Of a stretch of 64,000 nt of DNA, positions 4,750 to 62,483 are shown piece by piece. The stretch covers positions 186,001 through 250,000 of the forward strand of contig JADQCE010000001.1 of NCBI GenBank assembly GCA_016278265.1, read 5' to 3'. The stretch comes from Halothiobacillus sp. GTDB taxonomy: Bacteria; Pseudomonadota; Gammaproteobacteria; Halothiobacillales; Halothiobacillaceae. The notes below the pieces were generated by a model. That model saw only the letters and a program-made list of their open reading frames with translations, made no database searches and was not told the origin of the DNA. A program made the position numbers and the translations under genes. The first letter of the stretch is position 1. Each line of letters opens with the position of its first letter.

Positions 4750-5714
4750 CAGTAGCGCCGCCGGGTGACGAAATCGAGGCAGGCGCTCAACGCCTGGCCG
4801 TCGGATCCGAGGGTGGCCAGTTCCCACAGCACGGCGTGGGCGTGGCGCACGGTGTCGTCGAGCTCGCGACGTGCGCCGTCGAGTCCCGCGACGGTGACGT
4901 AGGAACATTTGTCCGCCGCGGCATCCTTGCCCGGGGTCTTGCCAAGGTCCTCGGCCGACCCGGTGACATCGAGGATGTCGTCCTGGATCTGGAAGGCCAG
5001 GCCCAGCAGGCGCCCGAAGTCGTCGACCAGCCGGAGTTGGCGTTCCGGCAGGCCCGCCCAGCGGGCGCCCAAACCCAGCGAGGCGCGGATCAGTGCGCCG
5101 GTCTTGCGATCGTGCAGGTCGGCCAGTTGGGCCAGATCCGGGGCATCGTCGTCACCCGCCTGCCCGGCAAGGTCCAGGTCGATCGCCTGGCCGCCGACCA
5201 TGCCCGCCGGGCCGATCGCCGCGGCGAGGCGGCGGGTCCAGTCGAGTCGGGTCGCGGGGTCGGCTTGCGCCTCGGCCAGTGTCGTGAAGGCCAGGCTCTG
5301 CAGGGCGTCCCCGGCGAGGATCGCGGTGGCCTCGTCGAAGGCGCGGTGCAGGGTGGGGCGCCCGCGGCGCAGGTCGTCGTCATCCATGCTCGGCAGGTCA
5401 TCGTGGACCAGCGAGTAGACATGCACGAGTTCGACGGCGATGGCGGCCGGCCACAGGCCGTCGAATCGCGCCTCGTCCGTCTCGGGCCACGGGCGGCCAA
5501 TCAGGCTGCCGAGAAAGACCAGGGCCGGGCGAAAGCGCTTGCCGCCGTCGAGGCTGGCGTGCCGCAGGGCGCTGGCCAGTCGAGGCGGGGTGTCGGCGAG
5601 TTGGCGGTCAAGCGCGGATGTCAGGCGCACCTCCACCTGGTCGCGAAAGGCGGTCAGCCAGGTGTCGAAACCATCCGGGGCGGCCAGGGTGCTGCTGTGC
5701 GGGGCGTGGGTCAC
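4749..5714 (-). CDS. ispA: farnesyl diphosphate synthase IspA
   Basis: A 321-residue short-chain prenyltransferase extending DMAPP with IPP to farnesyl diphosphate. The first aspartate-rich motif is HDDLPSMDDDDLRRG and the second is FQIQDDILDVTG; GGKRFRP marks the IPP-binding region. It starts with GTG (MTHAPHSS), 5 bp after the xseB stop, and its stop overlaps the dxs ATG. The xseB-ispA-dxs order is the classic gammaproteobacterial isoprenoid operon. Confidence 0.94.
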   Translation of the reverse strand: MTHAPHSSTLAAPDGFDTWLTAFRDQVEVRLTSALDRQLADTPPRLASALRHASLDGGKRFRPALVFLGSLIGRPWPETDEARFDGLWPAAIAVELVHVYSLVHDDLPSMDDDDLRRGRPTLHRAFDEATAILAGDALQSLAFTTLAEAQADPATRLDWTRRLAAAIGPAGMVGGQAIDLDLAGQAGDDDAPDLAQLADLHDRKTGALIRASLGLGARWAGLPERQLRLVDDFGRLLGLAFQIQDDILDVTGSAEDLGKTPGKDAAADKCSYVTVAGLDGARRELDDTVRHAHAVLWELATLGSDGQALSACLDFVTRRRY

Positions 5715-12349: not shown

Positions 12350-14299
12350 TCAGGACGTCGACGCTGGTTGGTCGTAGCCGTCGGCATTCTGACCGACTGG
12401 CGGCGTGGTCCCCGGCAGCCGCGTCGGGCTGGTAAGCGAACCGGGTAGGGTCGGACTTTGTGTCGGGTCGACGGGCTGAATCAGCCCTTGGCGGAATTGG
12501 CCCCAACGCGGCTGGCGCTCGACCAATCCGGTGGGCGTGACCGACAGCTCGCCGGTCAGCCCGTCGAGCGTCCCGCCCTGCAATAGCATCTCCATTCGTC
12601 CGGCCAGGGCCGCCGCATCCGCACCGAAGGCGAACAGGCGGGGCAGTGGGCCGGCCAGTTGAGCGCGTTCGTAGATGATGCGCAATGGATTCTCGGGACC
12701 GGCCGTGCCGGCGAGCAACAGCGGGGCGATCGGGATGATCACGCCGTTCTTGTCGGCATCGCCACGCCGATCCGGGTTGCCGTTGTAGGCCAGGCCCAGG
12801 CCGTAGCGCGGCAGGTCGTCGGCACCGAAATAGTCGAGTTGGGGTACCACCAGGGCCAGTTCGTCGCCACTGGCGGCGAGGAAGATGGCGTCGAGGTCGT
12901 CGCGGATGATGGGTTGAAACGGCCCGTCATTGGATTTCGTGCGGACTCGCAGCAGGCTGCGCAGTTCGCTGGAGAAATCCGTCTGGCCGGAGGCGAAGCG
13001 GGCGCGATCGACCACTTCGCCGCCGAGTAGCTGGAACTCATTGGCGAATGCCTCGCGGGTGCGCTCGCCCAAGTGATGGCCGGCCGAGAAGATGGCCGCG
13101 CGCCGGTGGCCGTCGGTCCACATGCGCCGAGCGACGGCGGCGGCATCCAGTTCCGGCGACAAGGAGAAGCTGATCACGCCGCGGGGCAGGGATTCGCCGG
13201 CCGGTGGCGAATTGAGGGCGATCGCCAGCGGGCCACCGGGCGGAAGTCCAGCCAGGGCGCCCAGTTGTTCCTTGAGGAGCGGGCCGATGATCACGGCGAC
13301 CCCGGCCCGCTGAGCCTGTTCGATTGCGACCTTGGCGCCGATTCGGTCGCTGCCCGAGTCAAAGAAGAGCACGTCCCGGCCTCCGAGTGCGCCGTTCTCG
13401 CGGGCGTAGTCGATGCCGGCACGGATCTCGCGGGTGATGCCCGCATAGCGGTCGCCCTCCGGCAGAAGGACCGCGACCGGGCCCGTCTTGGCCGGCGCCG
13501 TCAGTTGAACCAAGGGCTCGGTGGCACCCAGCATTTCCACCAGGCCGCTCTCGATGGCCGGGTGCTCCCGGTGGCTGGCAATCCAGCTATCGATCTGTCC
13601 GGGTTGCTGGCGGTAGGTCAATGCCAGTTCCAGCCAGCCGGCAAACTGGCGACTGCCGGTGCCTTCGGCCTCGCGCTGCAGTTGGTCGGCTGGTACCTCG
13701 GTCAGCAGGTTCCAGATACGGGCGTGGTTCGTTTCACGTGCTTTTTCGTCGAGCCGGTCGTCAACCGCGTCGTAGTAGCGGGCGGCGGTCAGCGGGTTGC
13801 CGAGCTCCGCCTCGAGTGCGCCTAGCAGGATCAGTCGGCGTCGTTCACTGTCCGAATCCAGTGGCAGCGGAATGCGGTGAATGGTGCGCCGGGCCTGCTC
13901 GGGATCGCCGGCACTCCATTCGCCCAGTCCGCGCGCAATGGCCGCCCGGCGTGAATTGATGGCATCCCAGCGAGCCTGGGTGTCGGCCTGCTGATAGAGT
14001 TCGCGGGCCAGTTCCAGTTGGTGGGCGTCGATCGCCGTTTCCAGCGCGTTGAGTTGCTGCTCGGCGCGGGCGGCCCCGGAGAGGGTCTGCGACAGCGCCA
14101 TCCGTGCCCGGGCGAGTGCCGCGGGGTCCTGGGCGCTGATGGCCTGGTCGATCTCTGCCTGCGCGGCCTGACGCTGGTCGTCCTGCGGCGAGGGGGCCAT
14201 CTGGGCGCAGCCGCCCAAGGTCATCCCCAGGGTCAGCAGGATGGCCAACAGGGCCAGCCGCGTGGCGGGGTGTGCGAGCGGGCTTGGGCGTGTCGGCAT
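12350..14299 (-). CDS. lpoA: penicillin-binding protein activator LpoA
   Basis: A 649-residue outer-membrane lipoprotein that activates PBP1A from the periplasm. The signal peptide ends in LGGC. An N-terminal TPR-like helical region (rich in ARARMAL/ELARELY-type repeats) is followed by a periplasmic-binding-protein-like domain starting VAVLLPEGDRYAGITREI and containing AGVAVIIGPLLKEQLGAL. The C-terminal tail is proline/threonine rich. The ATG at 14299 begins the signal peptide; the frame is open farther upstream but that part overlaps the divergent rsmI region. Confidence 0.9.
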   Translation of the reverse strand: MPTRPSPLAHPATRLALLAILLTLGMTLGGCAQMAPSPQDDQRQAAQAEIDQAISAQDPAALARARMALSQTLSGAARAEQQLNALETAIDAHQLELARELYQQADTQARWDAINSRRAAIARGLGEWSAGDPEQARRTIHRIPLPLDSDSERRRLILLGALEAELGNPLTAARYYDAVDDRLDEKARETNHARIWNLLTEVPADQLQREAEGTGSRQFAGWLELALTYRQQPGQIDSWIASHREHPAIESGLVEMLGATEPLVQLTAPAKTGPVAVLLPEGDRYAGITREIRAGIDYARENGALGGRDVLFFDSGSDRIGAKVAIEQAQRAGVAVIIGPLLKEQLGALAGLPPGGPLAIALNSPPAGESLPRGVISFSLSPELDAAAVARRMWTDGHRRAAIFSAGHHLGERTREAFANEFQLLGGEVVDRARFASGQTDFSSELRSLLRVRTKSNDGPFQPIIRDDLDAIFLAASGDELALVVPQLDYFGADDLPRYGLGLAYNGNPDRRGDADKNGVIIPIAPLLLAGTAGPENPLRIIYERAQLAGPLPRLFAFGADAAALAGRMEMLLQGGTLDGLTGELSVTPTGLVERQPRWGQFRQGLIQPVDPTQSPTLPGSLTSPTRLPGTTPPVGQNADGYDQPASTS

Positions 14300-59250: not shown

Positions 59251-59278
59251 AAAACCCCGCCATCCGGCGGGGTTTTTT
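59251..59278 (+). terminator. bidirectional terminator after the yqhA-like gene
   Basis: Stem AAAACCCCGCC with loop ATCC and the complement followed by six T's; it lies between two converging genes and can serve both. Confidence 0.92.
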
Positions 59279-59306: not shown

Positions 59307-59951
59307 TTACCAGTGCAGCAGGCGCGGCCCGAGCCAGGCGCCCAGGGTCGTCGGGATCGCGACCCCGAGCAGGTACCACAGGGCGATGAACGGGGCGGTC
59401 ATTTCCGGGCAGTGCAGCGAGTAGACCAGCGCGGCAAGCGACCCCGAGAACAGCCCGGCGGCCGCGCCGGCCAGTCGCAGCCGGGTCGGCGCCATGCCGC
59501 GCATCGCCCACAGCGTGCTTGCCAGCAGCGGGGCGGCCAGCAGGGCGATCAGGAAGGCGCAGCTGCTCCAGGTCTCGCCCAGCAGCAGGCTGACGCGCTG
59601 TGACGGCGTCGCCTGGGTGAGCGAGGCGAGGGCAAGCAGCCATAGCAGCAGCACGGGTATGGCGGTGGTCGACGGCGGCAGCCTGCCCAGCTTGACCCCC
59701 GGCCGTCCCAGTCGCCAGGTGGCGACCAGTCCGGCGACGATCAGCAGGCCGGCAAAGCCGATCTTGACCCAGAACATCGGGTCCATGGCCGCCTGGGGCA
59801 GGTCGGATCGGATCCCGAGCAGTCCCAGCATCAGGGCGATGCTTGCAAGCAGGCCGGCCGCGGTCGCCAGTGCCAGTCGGCTCGGGAGCGTGCGTCGGGG
59901 CACGGCCACCTCGCCGGCGGCGAGTAGGGAGACCAGTTCGTCTGTCTTCAT
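59307..59951 (-). CDS. NrsF family anti-sigma factor (DUF1109)
   Basis: A 214-residue protein with six hydrophobic segments after a short cytoplasmic N-terminus (MKTDELVSLLAAGEVAVPRR). This is the NrsF/DUF1109 layout of membrane anti-sigma factors that hold SigF-type ECF sigma factors. Its start overlaps the sigma gene by ATGA. A cysteine in SLHCPEM and others in membrane loops could be redox-active sensor residues, which is inference. It should release the sigma factor under periplasmic oxidant or metal stress. Confidence 0.87.
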   Translation of the reverse strand: MKTDELVSLLAAGEVAVPRRTLPSRLALATAAGLLASIALMLGLLGIRSDLPQAAMDPMFWVKIGFAGLLIVAGLVATWRLGRPGVKLGRLPPSTTAIPVLLLWLLALASLTQATPSQRVSLLLGETWSSCAFLIALLAAPLLASTLWAMRGMAPTRLRLAGAAAGLFSGSLAALVYSLHCPEMTAPFIALWYLLGVAIPTTLGAWLGPRLLHW

Positions 59952-60490
59952 GCGTTTTGCCCCTGGATCAGTTTGGACAGTGCCTTGAGGCCGCGATGGA
60001 CGCCGACCTTGACGGCCGATTTGGACATGCCGGTGCGCTGCGCGGTCTCGGCGACCGACAGTCCCTCCAGCTTCATGTGCCGGATCGCCATGCGCTGGCG
60101 CTCCGGCAATCGGGCGAGCAGCCGGTCCAGATCTCGGCCCGCCATCTCGTCGTGTTCGGGGGCGCTCGGTTCCAGCGCCGTTTCCTTGTCCAGTGAGTCG
60201 GTCCGCTGTTCCCGTCGTTGTCGTCGTCGCAGCAGGTCGGCGAGCTTGTAGCGGGCGATCGCGTAGAGCCAGGCGGTGACCGGCAGGGTCGGGTCATAGG
60301 TCTGGCGCTTGTCGTGGATTGCCAGCAGCGAATCCTGCACCAGGTCTTCCACCTCGTCGGGCAGGCTGCCCAGTCGGCGATGGAAGTAGCGCCGCAGCAG
60401 GTCGCCGGTGGCCTGCAGGAAGGCGTGATAGGCGCGATTGTCCCCGGACAGCCCACTCAGCAACCGTCTCCGCAGCTCCTCCTCGCTCAT
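59948..60490 (-). CDS. SigF-like ECF RNA polymerase sigma factor
   Basis: A 180-residue ECF sigma factor. Region 2 has DEVEDLVQDSLLAIHDKRQT and TAWLYAIARYKLADLLRRR; region 4 has LPERQRMAIRHMKLEGLSVA and AQRTGMSKSAVKVGVHRGLK. Genetic linkage to an NrsF protein places it in the SigF group. An upstream ATG at 60514 overlaps the -10 element of the SigF-type promoter, so the ATG at 60490 is chosen. It should control itself and the divergent cytochrome-molybdoenzyme-MxKDx operon. Confidence 0.9.
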   Translation of the reverse strand: MSEEELRRRLLSGLSGDNRAYHAFLQATGDLLRRYFHRRLGSLPDEVEDLVQDSLLAIHDKRQTYDPTLPVTAWLYAIARYKLADLLRRRQRREQRTDSLDKETALEPSAPEHDEMAGRDLDRLLARLPERQRMAIRHMKLEGLSVAETAQRTGMSKSAVKVGVHRGLKALSKLIQGQNA

Positions 60491-60513
60491 CTTCTCCCCA
60501 CCATGCCCCTTCA

Positions 60514-60539
60514 TTCGCTCGCACCATGGGTTTGGTTAC
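60514..60539 (-). promoter_or_regulatory. SigF-type ECF promoter for the sigma-nrsF operon
   Basis: GTAACC-N16-CGAA on the minus strand, identical to the motif known for Caulobacter SigF. The -10 overlaps an ATG at 60514, which rules that ATG out as start codon. Confidence 0.85.
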
Positions 60540-60598
60540 ATCCGCGATTGTAGGCGCCCCGGTTTTTGCCGCGCCATGCCATTGATCGAGCCCTGATT

Positions 60599-60624
60599 GT
60601 AACCAACGGCCGGCCAGCGGCGAA
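60599..60624 (+). promoter_or_regulatory. SigF-type ECF promoter for the cytochrome-molybdoenzyme operon
   Basis: A second GTAACC-N16-CGAA, on the plus strand, 71 bp before the cytochrome b start. Two exact copies with the same spacing facing opposite ways make chance unlikely. Confidence 0.87.
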
Positions 60625-60695
60625 TGAAAGGGTGCGTCCATCGTCGCGACGGTCGGGCCGCTGGCTCGACAACCGCGCGTTTCAGGAGACCGCCC

Positions 60696-61322
60696 ATGAA
60701 CGCACAACCCGTTATGGCCAACAAGGCCGCCGGAGATGTGCCGCCGGTTCACCCGCTGTGGCTGCGGCTGACCCACTGGCTCAATGCGCTGGCGGTGGTG
60801 CTGATGGTGATGAGCGGCTGGCGGATCTACAACGCCTCGCCGCTGTTCGATTTTCGCTTTCCCGACGAGATCACCTTGGGCGGCTGGCTGGCCGGCGCGA
60901 TCCTGTGGCATTTCGCGGCCATGTGGCTGCTGGTGGTTAACGGGTTGCTCTACCTGAGCATCAACACCGCCACCGGCCGGCTGGGGCGGCGCTTCTTCCC
61001 CCTTTCGCCACGCGGGTTCGCGGCCGATCTGAAGGCCGCTTTTCATGGCCGGCTCTCGCATGCCGATCCGCGTCGGTACAACACGGTGCAGCGGGCCGCC
61101 TACCTGTTCGTGATCCTCGACCTGGTGCTGCTCGTGCTCTCGGGTCTGGTGCTGTGGAAGTCGGTGCAGTTCCCGCTGCTGCGCGAGCTGATGGGCGGGT
61201 ACGAGACGGCGCGCTACGTGCACTTTTTCACCATGGCCGCGCTAGTCGGTTTCGTGGTGATCCACGTGGCGATGGCGCTGCTGGTGCCGCGTTCGCTGCT
61301 GCACATGATTCGTGGTCGATGA
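60696..61322 (+). CDS. cytochrome b561-type membrane subunit (YedZ1-like)
   Basis: A 208-residue membrane protein with four to five helices and heme-ligand histidines in HPLWLRLTHWLNALAVVLM, LWHFAAMWLLVV, TARYVHFFTMAALVGF and VVIHVAMALLV, as in the Ni-hydrogenase-type cytochrome b561 family. AGGAGA precedes the ATG at 60696. It lies 13 bp before the molybdoenzyme gene and is likely its quinol-side electron donor, a role analogous to MsrQ but with a different fold. Confidence 0.88.
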   Translation: MNAQPVMANKAAGDVPPVHPLWLRLTHWLNALAVVLMVMSGWRIYNASPLFDFRFPDEITLGGWLAGAILWHFAAMWLLVVNGLLYLSINTATGRLGRRFFPLSPRGFAADLKAAFHGRLSHADPRRYNTVQRAAYLFVILDLVLLVLSGLVLWKSVQFPLLRELMGGYETARYVHFFTMAALVGFVVIHVAMALLVPRSLLHMIRGR

Positions 61323-61335
61323 CCGAGGAGCTGGC

Positions 61336-62085
61336 ATGAACGATCGACACAAGCGAATGTGGCAGATGGACATCGGGCCGGAACAACCGGATCGGCGACG
61401 CTTTCTGCGTGGTTCGCTGGCGCTGGGCGCATTGCCGCTGCTGGGCGGCTGTTCGATCAGCGACGAGCCGATCGTCGAGAAGGCGTTGCTGCAGGTTTCT
61501 CGATTCAACGATCGCGTCCAGGCCTGGCTGTTCGATCCCGAGCAGCTGGCGCCGACGTACCCCGAGTCGATGATTACCCGGCCATTCCCGTTCAACGCCT
61601 ACTATTCTCTGGACAAGGTGCCGCAGGTCGACGGCGAGCGTTTTCGCCTGCAGGTCGGTGGCCGGGTCGCCGACCAGCGCCCATGGTCACTCGCCGAACT
61701 GCGCACCCTGCCGCAAACGGATCAGGTAACCCGCCTGATCTGCGTCGAGGGCTGGAGTGCGATCGGCAAGTGGGGCGGGGTGCGCTTCTCGGACTTTCTG
61801 GAGCGCATTGGTGCCGATCTGGAGGCCCAATACGTCGGCTTTCGCTGTGCCGATGGCTACTACACCAGCATCGACATGCCGACCGCGCTGCACCCGCAGA
61901 CGCTGCTGACACTGACATTCGACGGGCAGGTCTTGCCCGCCCGCTACGGTTTTCCGCTGAAGCTGCGCATGCCGACTAAGCTTGGCTACAAGAATCCCAA
62001 GCACGTCGAGGCGCTGTTCGTCACCAACACGTACCCCGGCGGCTACTGGGAAGACCGTGGGTACAACTGGTTCGGCGGCAGCTGA
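61336..62085 (+). CDS. Tat-exported molybdopterin oxidoreductase, sulfite-oxidase/MsrP (YedY1-like)
   Basis: A 249-residue molybdoenzyme. The Tat signal DRRRFLRGSLALGALPLLGG ends in a Cys (LLGGC, Cys39), suggesting a lipoprotein. The molybdenum-ligand cysteine is in RLICVEGWSAIGKW (Cys136), and ADGYYTSIDMPTALHP, RMPTKLGYKNPKHVEALFV and PGGYWEDRGYNWFG are SUOX-fold blocks. Likely reduces periplasmic methionine sulfoxide; sulfite oxidase activity is the alternative. GAGGAG precedes the ATG at 61336. Confidence 0.88.
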   Translation: MNDRHKRMWQMDIGPEQPDRRRFLRGSLALGALPLLGGCSISDEPIVEKALLQVSRFNDRVQAWLFDPEQLAPTYPESMITRPFPFNAYYSLDKVPQVDGERFRLQVGGRVADQRPWSLAELRTLPQTDQVTRLICVEGWSAIGKWGGVRFSDFLERIGADLEAQYVGFRCADGYYTSIDMPTALHPQTLLTLTFDGQVLPARYGFPLKLRMPTKLGYKNPKHVEALFVTNTYPGGYWEDRGYNWFGGS

Positions 62086-62159
62086 GCATTGGGCTCGGCT
62101 GCGCTGAGGCATGGCACTGCCGCCATGCACCATTAGCACGACGACAAGAGGGTATTCCC

Positions 62160-62483
62160 ATGAAGACGATGACGGTATCGATGATCTGTGCCGGCCTGAT
62201 GACCATGGGCACCGCCGCCATTGCGGCCGAGCCCATGCAGCAGGATGTTTACGCCACCCTGGCCATGTCTCACGAGGACGGCGAAAATGAGGCCATGGGC
62301 CAGGACCAGATGGGCGGCGGCGAGATGTCCGGCGACGAAATGGGCCAGGACGCGATGGAAAAGGACGCGATGGAAAAGGACGAGATGGAAAAGGACGAGA
62401 TGGGCCACGGCAGCATGGACCAGGACGGCATGGACAAGGATGGCGAGATGGATGACGAAATGGGCGGCGGCATGGGCGAGTAA
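62160..62483 (+). CDS. periplasmic methionine-rich MxKDx-repeat protein (MrpX-like)
   Basis: A 107-residue protein: a signal peptide ending near Ala23, then about 84 acidic residues with roughly 15 methionines and no cysteine. The centre repeats AMEKD-AMEKD-EMEKD, the pentapeptide MxKDx family; MGGG and MDQDGMDKDGEM follow. In Azospira a similar protein (MrpX) soaks up hypochlorite through methionine oxidation and is repaired by a YedY-type enzyme. AGAGGG lies 7 bp before the ATG. It probably shares the operon transcript (74-bp gap). Confidence 0.88.
   Translation: MKTMTVSMICAGLMTMGTAAIAAEPMQQDVYATLAMSHEDGENEAMGQDQMGGGEMSGDEMGQDAMEKDAMEKDEMEKDEMGHGSMDQDGMDKDGEMDDEMGGGMGE
62355..62399 (+). 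repeat. three tandem 15-bp units inside the methionine-rich gene
   Basis: Three copies of ATGGAAAAGGACGMG encode MEKDA/MEKDE. Near-identity at DNA level suggests recent unit duplication and probable length variation among strains. Confidence 0.85.

Follow-up and report, generated by a model that had tools for sequence, protein, structure and literature searches.

We propose that five genes at positions 59307 to 62483 of a 64,000-nucleotide stretch of Halothiobacillus sp. DNA (contig JADQCE010000001.1; the whole stretch is hereafter called the window) form a circuit that scavenges oxidants in the envelope, with a methionine-rich sink recharged by a molybdoenzyme; we assign this reading a probability of about 0.74. 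Open reading frames (ORFs) and profile searches identify an extracytoplasmic function (ECF) sigma factor, an NrsF-type anti-sigma factor, a cytochrome b561, a SUOX-fold molybdoenzyme with a signal for twin-arginine translocation (Tat), and a secreted Met-rich protein, and thereby bear out the five-gene module of a preliminary description made from the sequence alone. The genes are arranged divergently: nrsF and sigF lie on the minus strand, the genes for cytochrome, molybdoenzyme, and peptide on the plus strand. These genes, the promoter sequences, their conservation, and the signal and lipobox motifs are read directly from the DNA, and the fold class is taken from a predicted model. The circuit is real, complete, and widespread, and its kind is already known from Azospira and Brucella; what is new here are the paired exact SigF promoters and the finding that, of 27 genomes of the order, NrsF and the enzyme occupy an identical set of 14.

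The regulatory half of the module comprises sigF (59948..60490, minus strand; 180 residues from its likely start, the ORF extending to 60514) and nrsF (59307..59951, minus strand; 214 residues). The sigma protein contains sigma-70 regions 2 and 4 (Sigma70_r2/r4) and scores 192.9 bits against PRK12539 (cut-off 171) and 239.1 bits against PRK12536 (cut-off 250). Its likely start is 60490 (MSEEEL...) and not the outer ATG of the ORF at 60514, because the latter overlaps the −10 element and the sigma profiles begin at about residue 8–10 of the ORF. NrsF, a membrane anti-sigma factor by type, matches PF06532 with 233.7 bits (cut-off 26.8), while its 169.3 bits over the full length of the strict NCBIfam equivalog model NF042994 stay below the cut-off of 300; the profiles thus place it within the Pfam family, though not as a close NrsF orthologue. 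It has exactly two cysteines, Cys131 and Cys181, both of which are conserved in all 43 aligned sequences, and in Caulobacter NrsF C131 and C181 are the positions reported to matter (PMC3511200).

The same report gives the Caulobacter SigF promoter consensus as GTAACC-N16-CGAA (PMC3511200). A pattern search of the 64-kb window returned two exact sites only, one directed toward each operon: the first (60514..60539, minus strand) faces sigF-nrsF, the second (60599..60624, plus strand) faces the cytochrome-enzyme-peptide operon. Shuffled windows contained a mean of 0.01 sites, and none of 100 gave two. Moreover, among the 14 genomes of the host's family that have the locus, both promoters are present in 11 and at least one in all 14, with differing spacers (one site in genome G022 departs from the strict pattern by one base). 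Because exact sites face both operons and recur in relatives with differing spacers, control of both operons by SigF is very likely. Beyond the locus the picture is less distinct: The whole host genome holds five exact sites, two of them at the locus, against three for a reversed control pattern, so that sites elsewhere are indistinguishable from background and give no support to a wider SigF regulon. The three other sites sit within long open frames, which is hardly informative because the two sites at the locus also fall inside a mechanical ORF (60294-61223). Two sites that recur in related genomes occur also in genomes that lack NrsF. A few further SigF targets may nevertheless exist elsewhere in the host genome. 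In one relative of the same family (G012:C1, locus L153) inserted DNA of about 8.5 kb, placed between residues 117 and 120, splits sigF into pieces at 5098-5439 and 14003-14179; nrsF is retained there, as are the genes for cytochrome, enzyme, and Met-rich protein.

Regulator and effector also travel together. Across 27 genomes of the host's order, some of them incomplete and counted uncorrected for kinship, NrsF and the enzyme each occur in 14, and the two sets of genomes are identical. Relatives of the cassette are widespread in beta- and gammaproteobacteria. In named genomes, we examined the 80 best of 589 related loci; the enzyme served as the query, so these loci say nothing on how often NrsF occurs without it (L161 is the window itself, L178 equals L017, L206 equals L052, and L205 is probably L032). 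Within these best 80 of 589, cytochrome and enzyme genes are adjacent in 77, the stored contig starting too close in the other three, and NrsF lies nearby in 23. In a plasmid collection, 637 records contain a relative of the enzyme, and for 220 of these the match covers at least 80% of the query; replicons of Rahnella, Caballeronia, and Paraburkholderia are among them.

The candidate sink is encoded at 62160..62483 (plus strand) as a secreted MrpX/MxKDx-like peptide of 107 residues. It matches the MxKDx repeat model TIGR02953 with 59.3 bits (cut-off 41); with this model run over the whole host genome, only this peptide gene was matched (38.6 bits). Assuming cleavage after residue 23, the mature part of 84 residues contains exactly 15 Met, as the preliminary description had approximately counted, and carries a net charge of −24. 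To see how general this arrangement is, 105 loci were taken, of which 6 were too short and 99 testable: In 87 of these, the enzyme gene is closely followed by a Met-rich ORF. In the surveyed loci a gap of five residues between successive Met occurs 890 times and every other gap length at most 37 times. Charge behaves differently: It ranges from −20 to −29 in the window's genus (7 loci: L147-L152, L161), while sister genera have the near-neutral MxKDx form with 0 to −2 (6 loci: L153-L155, L157, L158, L160). That Met spacing and content are kept while charge drifts is as expected for a chemical sink. The acidic form is perhaps an adaptation of the window's genus, for example to salt.

The acidity invites another explanation, in which the peptide buffers copper or another heavy metal and the circuit as a whole is a metal-stress response like that of Caulobacter SigF. 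The Caulobacter SigF/NrsF pair indeed responds to chromium and cadmium and has the same promoter consensus (PMC3511200), Met-rich loops can scavenge copper, as described for CopA1 (PMC13192273), and a net charge of −24 would suit a metal ligand. We nevertheless regard metal buffering as improbable: In the family's loci Met spacing is kept while the charge varies between 0 and −29, the peptide is partnered with oxidoreductases and not with a metal pump, and one relative shares a contig with a chlorite dismutase.

The oxidoreductase pair consists of a cytochrome b561 (60696..61322, plus strand; 208 residues), the likely carrier of electrons from quinol to the enzyme, and the molybdoenzyme (61336..62085, plus strand; 249 residues). 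The cytochrome matches PF01292 with 90.1 bits, and its residues His27, 72, 122, 176, and 190 are present in 100, 100, 101, 102, and 102 of 102 sequences, respectively; five conserved histidines would be enough for two b haems. The molybdoenzyme matches the Oxidored_molyb family PF00174 with 102.2 bits, and its presumed Mo-ligand cysteine lies within a CVEGW motif, as in MsrP. The preliminary description had reasoned from Azospira MrpX/YedY1, but the enzyme is not of the canonical MsrP/YedY type: The score against the MsrP equivalog NF003767 is 67 bits, far under the cut-off of 207, and the partner is a PF01292 cytochrome rather than a PF01794 MsrQ. Taken together, these features assign the enzyme to a short, lipobox-bearing branch paired with cytochrome b561 and distinct from the MsrPQ type. 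The branch is under-described and less studied: Our literature searches, which drew on parts of the sources, returned neither a description of the lipobox/b561 enzyme type nor a measurement of MetO (methionine sulfoxide) reduction or any other activity for this branch, and we claim no absence in print beyond these searches.

The same comparisons bear on a further possibility, namely a small, membrane-bound sulfite dehydrogenase that passes its electrons to quinone via the cytochrome. This would fit a host that has SoxC, which points to a thiosulfate oxidiser. Structure comparison of the predicted model (SUOX fold, mean pLDDT 74.1, poor N-terminus) ranks MsrP no higher than SorA and sulfite oxidase (Z 17.9 for SorA, 17.5 for sulfite oxidase, 17.4 for SoxC, and 16.4 for MsrP), while the TM-scores lean to MsrP (0.57 vs 0.50–0.52); the SUOX fold, being common to MsrP and sulfite dehydrogenases, does not discriminate between them as modelled. 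Sequence comparisons argue against the assignment: The equivalog cut-offs are missed by far (SorA 52.7 of 600 bits, SoxC 37.1 of 420, SorT 11.4 of 570), the best sequence match in the PDB is E. coli MsrP (1xdq, 65.6 bits; SorA 48.6), and the CVEGW motif is that of MsrP. Since, moreover, relatives stand beside a Met-rich peptide under SigF/NrsF or two-component regulators, we consider a sulfite dehydrogenase very improbable. Further SUOX enzymes of the host are a canonical MsrP with MsrQ (L002 1213-2771) and SoxC (L001 1036-2406); this separate MsrP scores 417.4 bits on NF003767.

The N-terminus of the molybdoenzyme carries the Tat motif RRRFLRG (TAT_signal 21.6 bits, slightly below the cut-off of 22.7) followed by Cys39 in LGGC, a lipobox whose cysteine codon lies at 61450..61452 (plus strand). 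That this cysteine could anchor the enzyme to a membrane had been offered beforehand as an additional twist of the locus; the motif is there, yet it is no local peculiarity, since a twin-Arg motif followed by a lipobox cysteine is present in 94 of 94 branch sequences, the window copy included. The residue at position +2 of the cysteine varies: All eight Enterobacterales loci have Asp there, as has the E. coli copy, and the window enzyme has Ser, the residue of 48 of the 94. According to the E. coli Lol rule, Asp at +2 retains a lipoprotein in the inner membrane. By this rule, the Asp of the Enterobacterales would hold the enzyme at the inner membrane, where the cytochrome sits. The signal of the host's canonical MsrP also ends in a possible lipobox, LPGC.

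A link to reactive chlorine comes from relatives that neighbour a chlorite dismutase, an enzyme reported to be a routine companion of MetO reductase systems (PMC9751292). Of 199 genomes sampled from the Azonexus relative's family, 6 have a chlorite dismutase over the cut-off, and in 5 of these 6 SigF and NrsF lie in the fetched stretch around a chlorite dismutase copy; the two were not seen in the fetched stretches at G141 and at the second copy of G096. In G027 (L178) a complete cassette, with an enzyme 72% identical to that of the window, lies about 13 kb from chlorite dismutase on one contig. The same contig encodes a 938-residue molybdopterin oxidoreductase (PF00384), which by its position is probably a perchlorate reductase subunit. 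A cupin gene (L178 3842-4195) is found directly downstream of nrsF on this contig. In G160, SigF, NrsF, a Met-rich peptide, and chlorite dismutase occur with a canonical MsrP (456.6 bits, cut-off 207) and a PF01794 MsrQ. The shared SigF/NrsF-peptide-chlorite dismutase setting argues for the b561-enzyme pair and MsrPQ doing the same job, the MsrPQ case being a single one, so that the b561-enzyme pair appears to stand where a known MetO reductase can stand. At 19 NrsF places of this family (of 20 over the cut-off; G201 was left out), the b561-enzyme type is present at 11 and MsrPQ at one, while at 7 the fetched stretch contains neither. In the Azonexus family, SigF/NrsF may therefore be paired more often with the b561 type (11 of 19) than with MsrPQ (1 of 19).

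On this basis the circuit could operate as follows, with the inducer (hypochlorite, a metal, or a peroxide), the MetO-reductase activity, and the sensing by NrsF inferred from relatives. In unstressed cells, the membrane anti-sigma factor NrsF would hold SigF. When an oxidant appears, with reactive chlorine species the likeliest kind, NrsF would be altered, probably through Cys131/Cys181, and would thereby free SigF, which would use the two promoters to transcribe its own operon and the divergent effector operon. The secreted peptide would then serve as a sacrificial sink offering one Met per about five residues. Electrons would presumably flow from quinol via cytochrome b561 to the Tat-exported molybdoenzyme, which, putatively lipid-tethered at Cys39, would reduce peptide methionine sulfoxide back to Met and perhaps repair other envelope proteins, too. 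This is in essence the mechanism proposed in the preliminary description, and it is the most likely one: SigF/NrsF control of sink and reductase gained support from promoters, co-occurrence, conserved gene order, and the chlorite-dismutase relative.

Several observations weigh against this mechanism. The enzyme is remote from the MsrP equivalog, and the structure Z-scores rank MsrP last. If the E. coli Lol rule applies in these lineages, Ser at +2 would separate the window enzyme from the cytochrome by directing it to the outer membrane. As noted above, 7 of the 19 Azonexus-family NrsF places show no reductase in the fetched stretch. In a class-wide sample of 370 genomes, 15 have NrsF over the cut-off, three of them of the window's genus, and the cassette is absent from the fetched stretch at all 12 NrsF loci outside that genus. 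The inducers of related systems also differ: SigF-dependent genes of Caulobacter answer to chromium and cadmium and not to agents generating reactive oxygen species (PMC3511200), and the operon of uropathogenic E. coli (UPEC) is induced by H2O2 (PMC8550376). Finally, 12 of the 99 testable loci lack a detectable Met-rich ORF downstream of the enzyme.

That the enzyme is kept at these 12 loci is what one would expect if it performed general repair of MetO, or of another S-oxide, in the envelope, with the Met-rich peptide as a separate sink and not its main substrate; canonical MsrP is reported to repair periplasmic proteins such as SurA and Pal (PMC8315932, PMC8550376). The peptide gene follows the enzyme in the other 87 loci, however, and the host's separate MsrPQ could already do such repair, which is why we think general repair unlikely as the main role and prefer a sink recharged by the molybdoenzyme.

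The control of the effector unit is not uniform. Over a table of 102 rows, 45 loci have SigF/NrsF, 27 a two-component pair and one a partial pair, 20 neither, and 9 are cut off; the table contains some near-duplicates, uses 8 of the 11 enzyme-bearing Azonexus-family loci, and leaves out L201, L205, and L210 (split match or duplicate). When ten upstream proteins were scanned with Pfam, kinase or response-regulator domains appeared in five; of the remaining ones, those at L045, L059, L062, and L077 are unrelated, and L010:2672-3457, probably in the wrong frame, gave no match. The 20 loci such as L045, L059, L062, and L077 show the effector unit without nearby SigF/NrsF or a matching two-component pair. 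On the enzyme tree, regulator type needs at least three changes, two of them forced by well-supported branches, as compared with about 22.7 for shuffled labels; it is a quick tree with 29 rows in neither regulator group and a long branch for L209. The regulator table and the few changes on the tree indicate that the same effector unit is controlled by either of two regulator types. Going further, we tentatively suggest, at a little below even odds, that the b561-lipoprotein pair constitutes a class of MetO reductase in its own right, membrane-tethered, distinct from MsrPQ, and specialised for recharging the peptide: an exchangeable unit that was repeatedly placed under SigF/NrsF or an OmpR-type two-component system, with retention at the inner membrane by Asp +2 in Enterobacterales.

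In the window, the module is flanked on one side by a UPF0114 gene, according to a profile match, and on the other by a gene that we take, by eye, to be groEL; no chlorite dismutase was seen among the flanking genes. A terminator scan listed none at the module ends. A hairpin, CCCCGCC-ATCC-GGCGGGG, with a T run is readable at about 59255-59277 and carries no evidential weight here.

The locus adds a gammaproteobacterial lineage, one that also has SoxC, to the known range of a bleach-defence circuit. Provided that the enzyme does reduce MetO, one could study directly a MetO reductase that is membrane-tethered and has a dedicated substrate; its family is also present in E. coli, where 350 of 5426 complete genomes have a match.

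Among known systems, that of Azospira, reportedly first described by Melnyk 2015, is one of the closest. There, SigF/NrsF, MrpX, and YedY1/YedZ1 constitute a hypochlorite scavenging system (PMC4623255, PMC5748585), and the published accounts describe the same parts as found here: an ECF sigma factor with NrsF, a Met-rich peptide, a SUOX-type reductase, and a membrane electron donor. In addition, one relative carries the cassette of the window on a contig with chlorite dismutase; the comparison with Azospira rests on published descriptions of its proteins. In the chlorite-dismutase genome G160, an Azospira-like setting holds canonical MsrPQ, unlike the b561 pair of the window. Similarly, Brucella BcrS/AbcS-BcrXQP, which is induced by HOCl, is reported to comprise an ECF16 sigma factor, a two-Cys NrsF-type anti-sigma factor, an MxKDx peptide, and a MetO-reductase-like pair; it differs in that this pair is described as homologous to MsrQ/MsrP and in its operon order, which is peptide, Q, P (PMC8315932).

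The effector half finds its counterpart in E. coli. The operon of strain ABU 83972 has the same order of cytochrome b561, lipobox molybdoenzyme, and Met-rich peptide, with identities to the window of 56% for the cytochrome and 59% for the enzyme, whose lipobox has Asp at +2; its peptide scores 35.2 bits on TIGR02953, below the cut-off of 41, vs 59.3 for that of the window. E. coli MsrPQ shares with the window pair the SUOX fold, Tat export, the CVE[AG]W motif, and a quinol-fed membrane partner, but this partner is a PF01794 MsrQ, and the window enzyme is shorter and misses the MsrP cut-off. From order and description we infer that the ABU 83972 operon corresponds to UPEC c3566-c3567-c3568, which stands under the two-component system OrhKR and responds to H2O2 (PMC8550376), whereas the window operon neighbours sigF-nrsF instead. 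Because SigF/NrsF control is joined to an effector that matches the ABU 83972 operon, the window, as do betaproteobacterial NrsF loci, appears to combine a regulator of the Azospira/Brucella kind with an effector of the UPEC kind.

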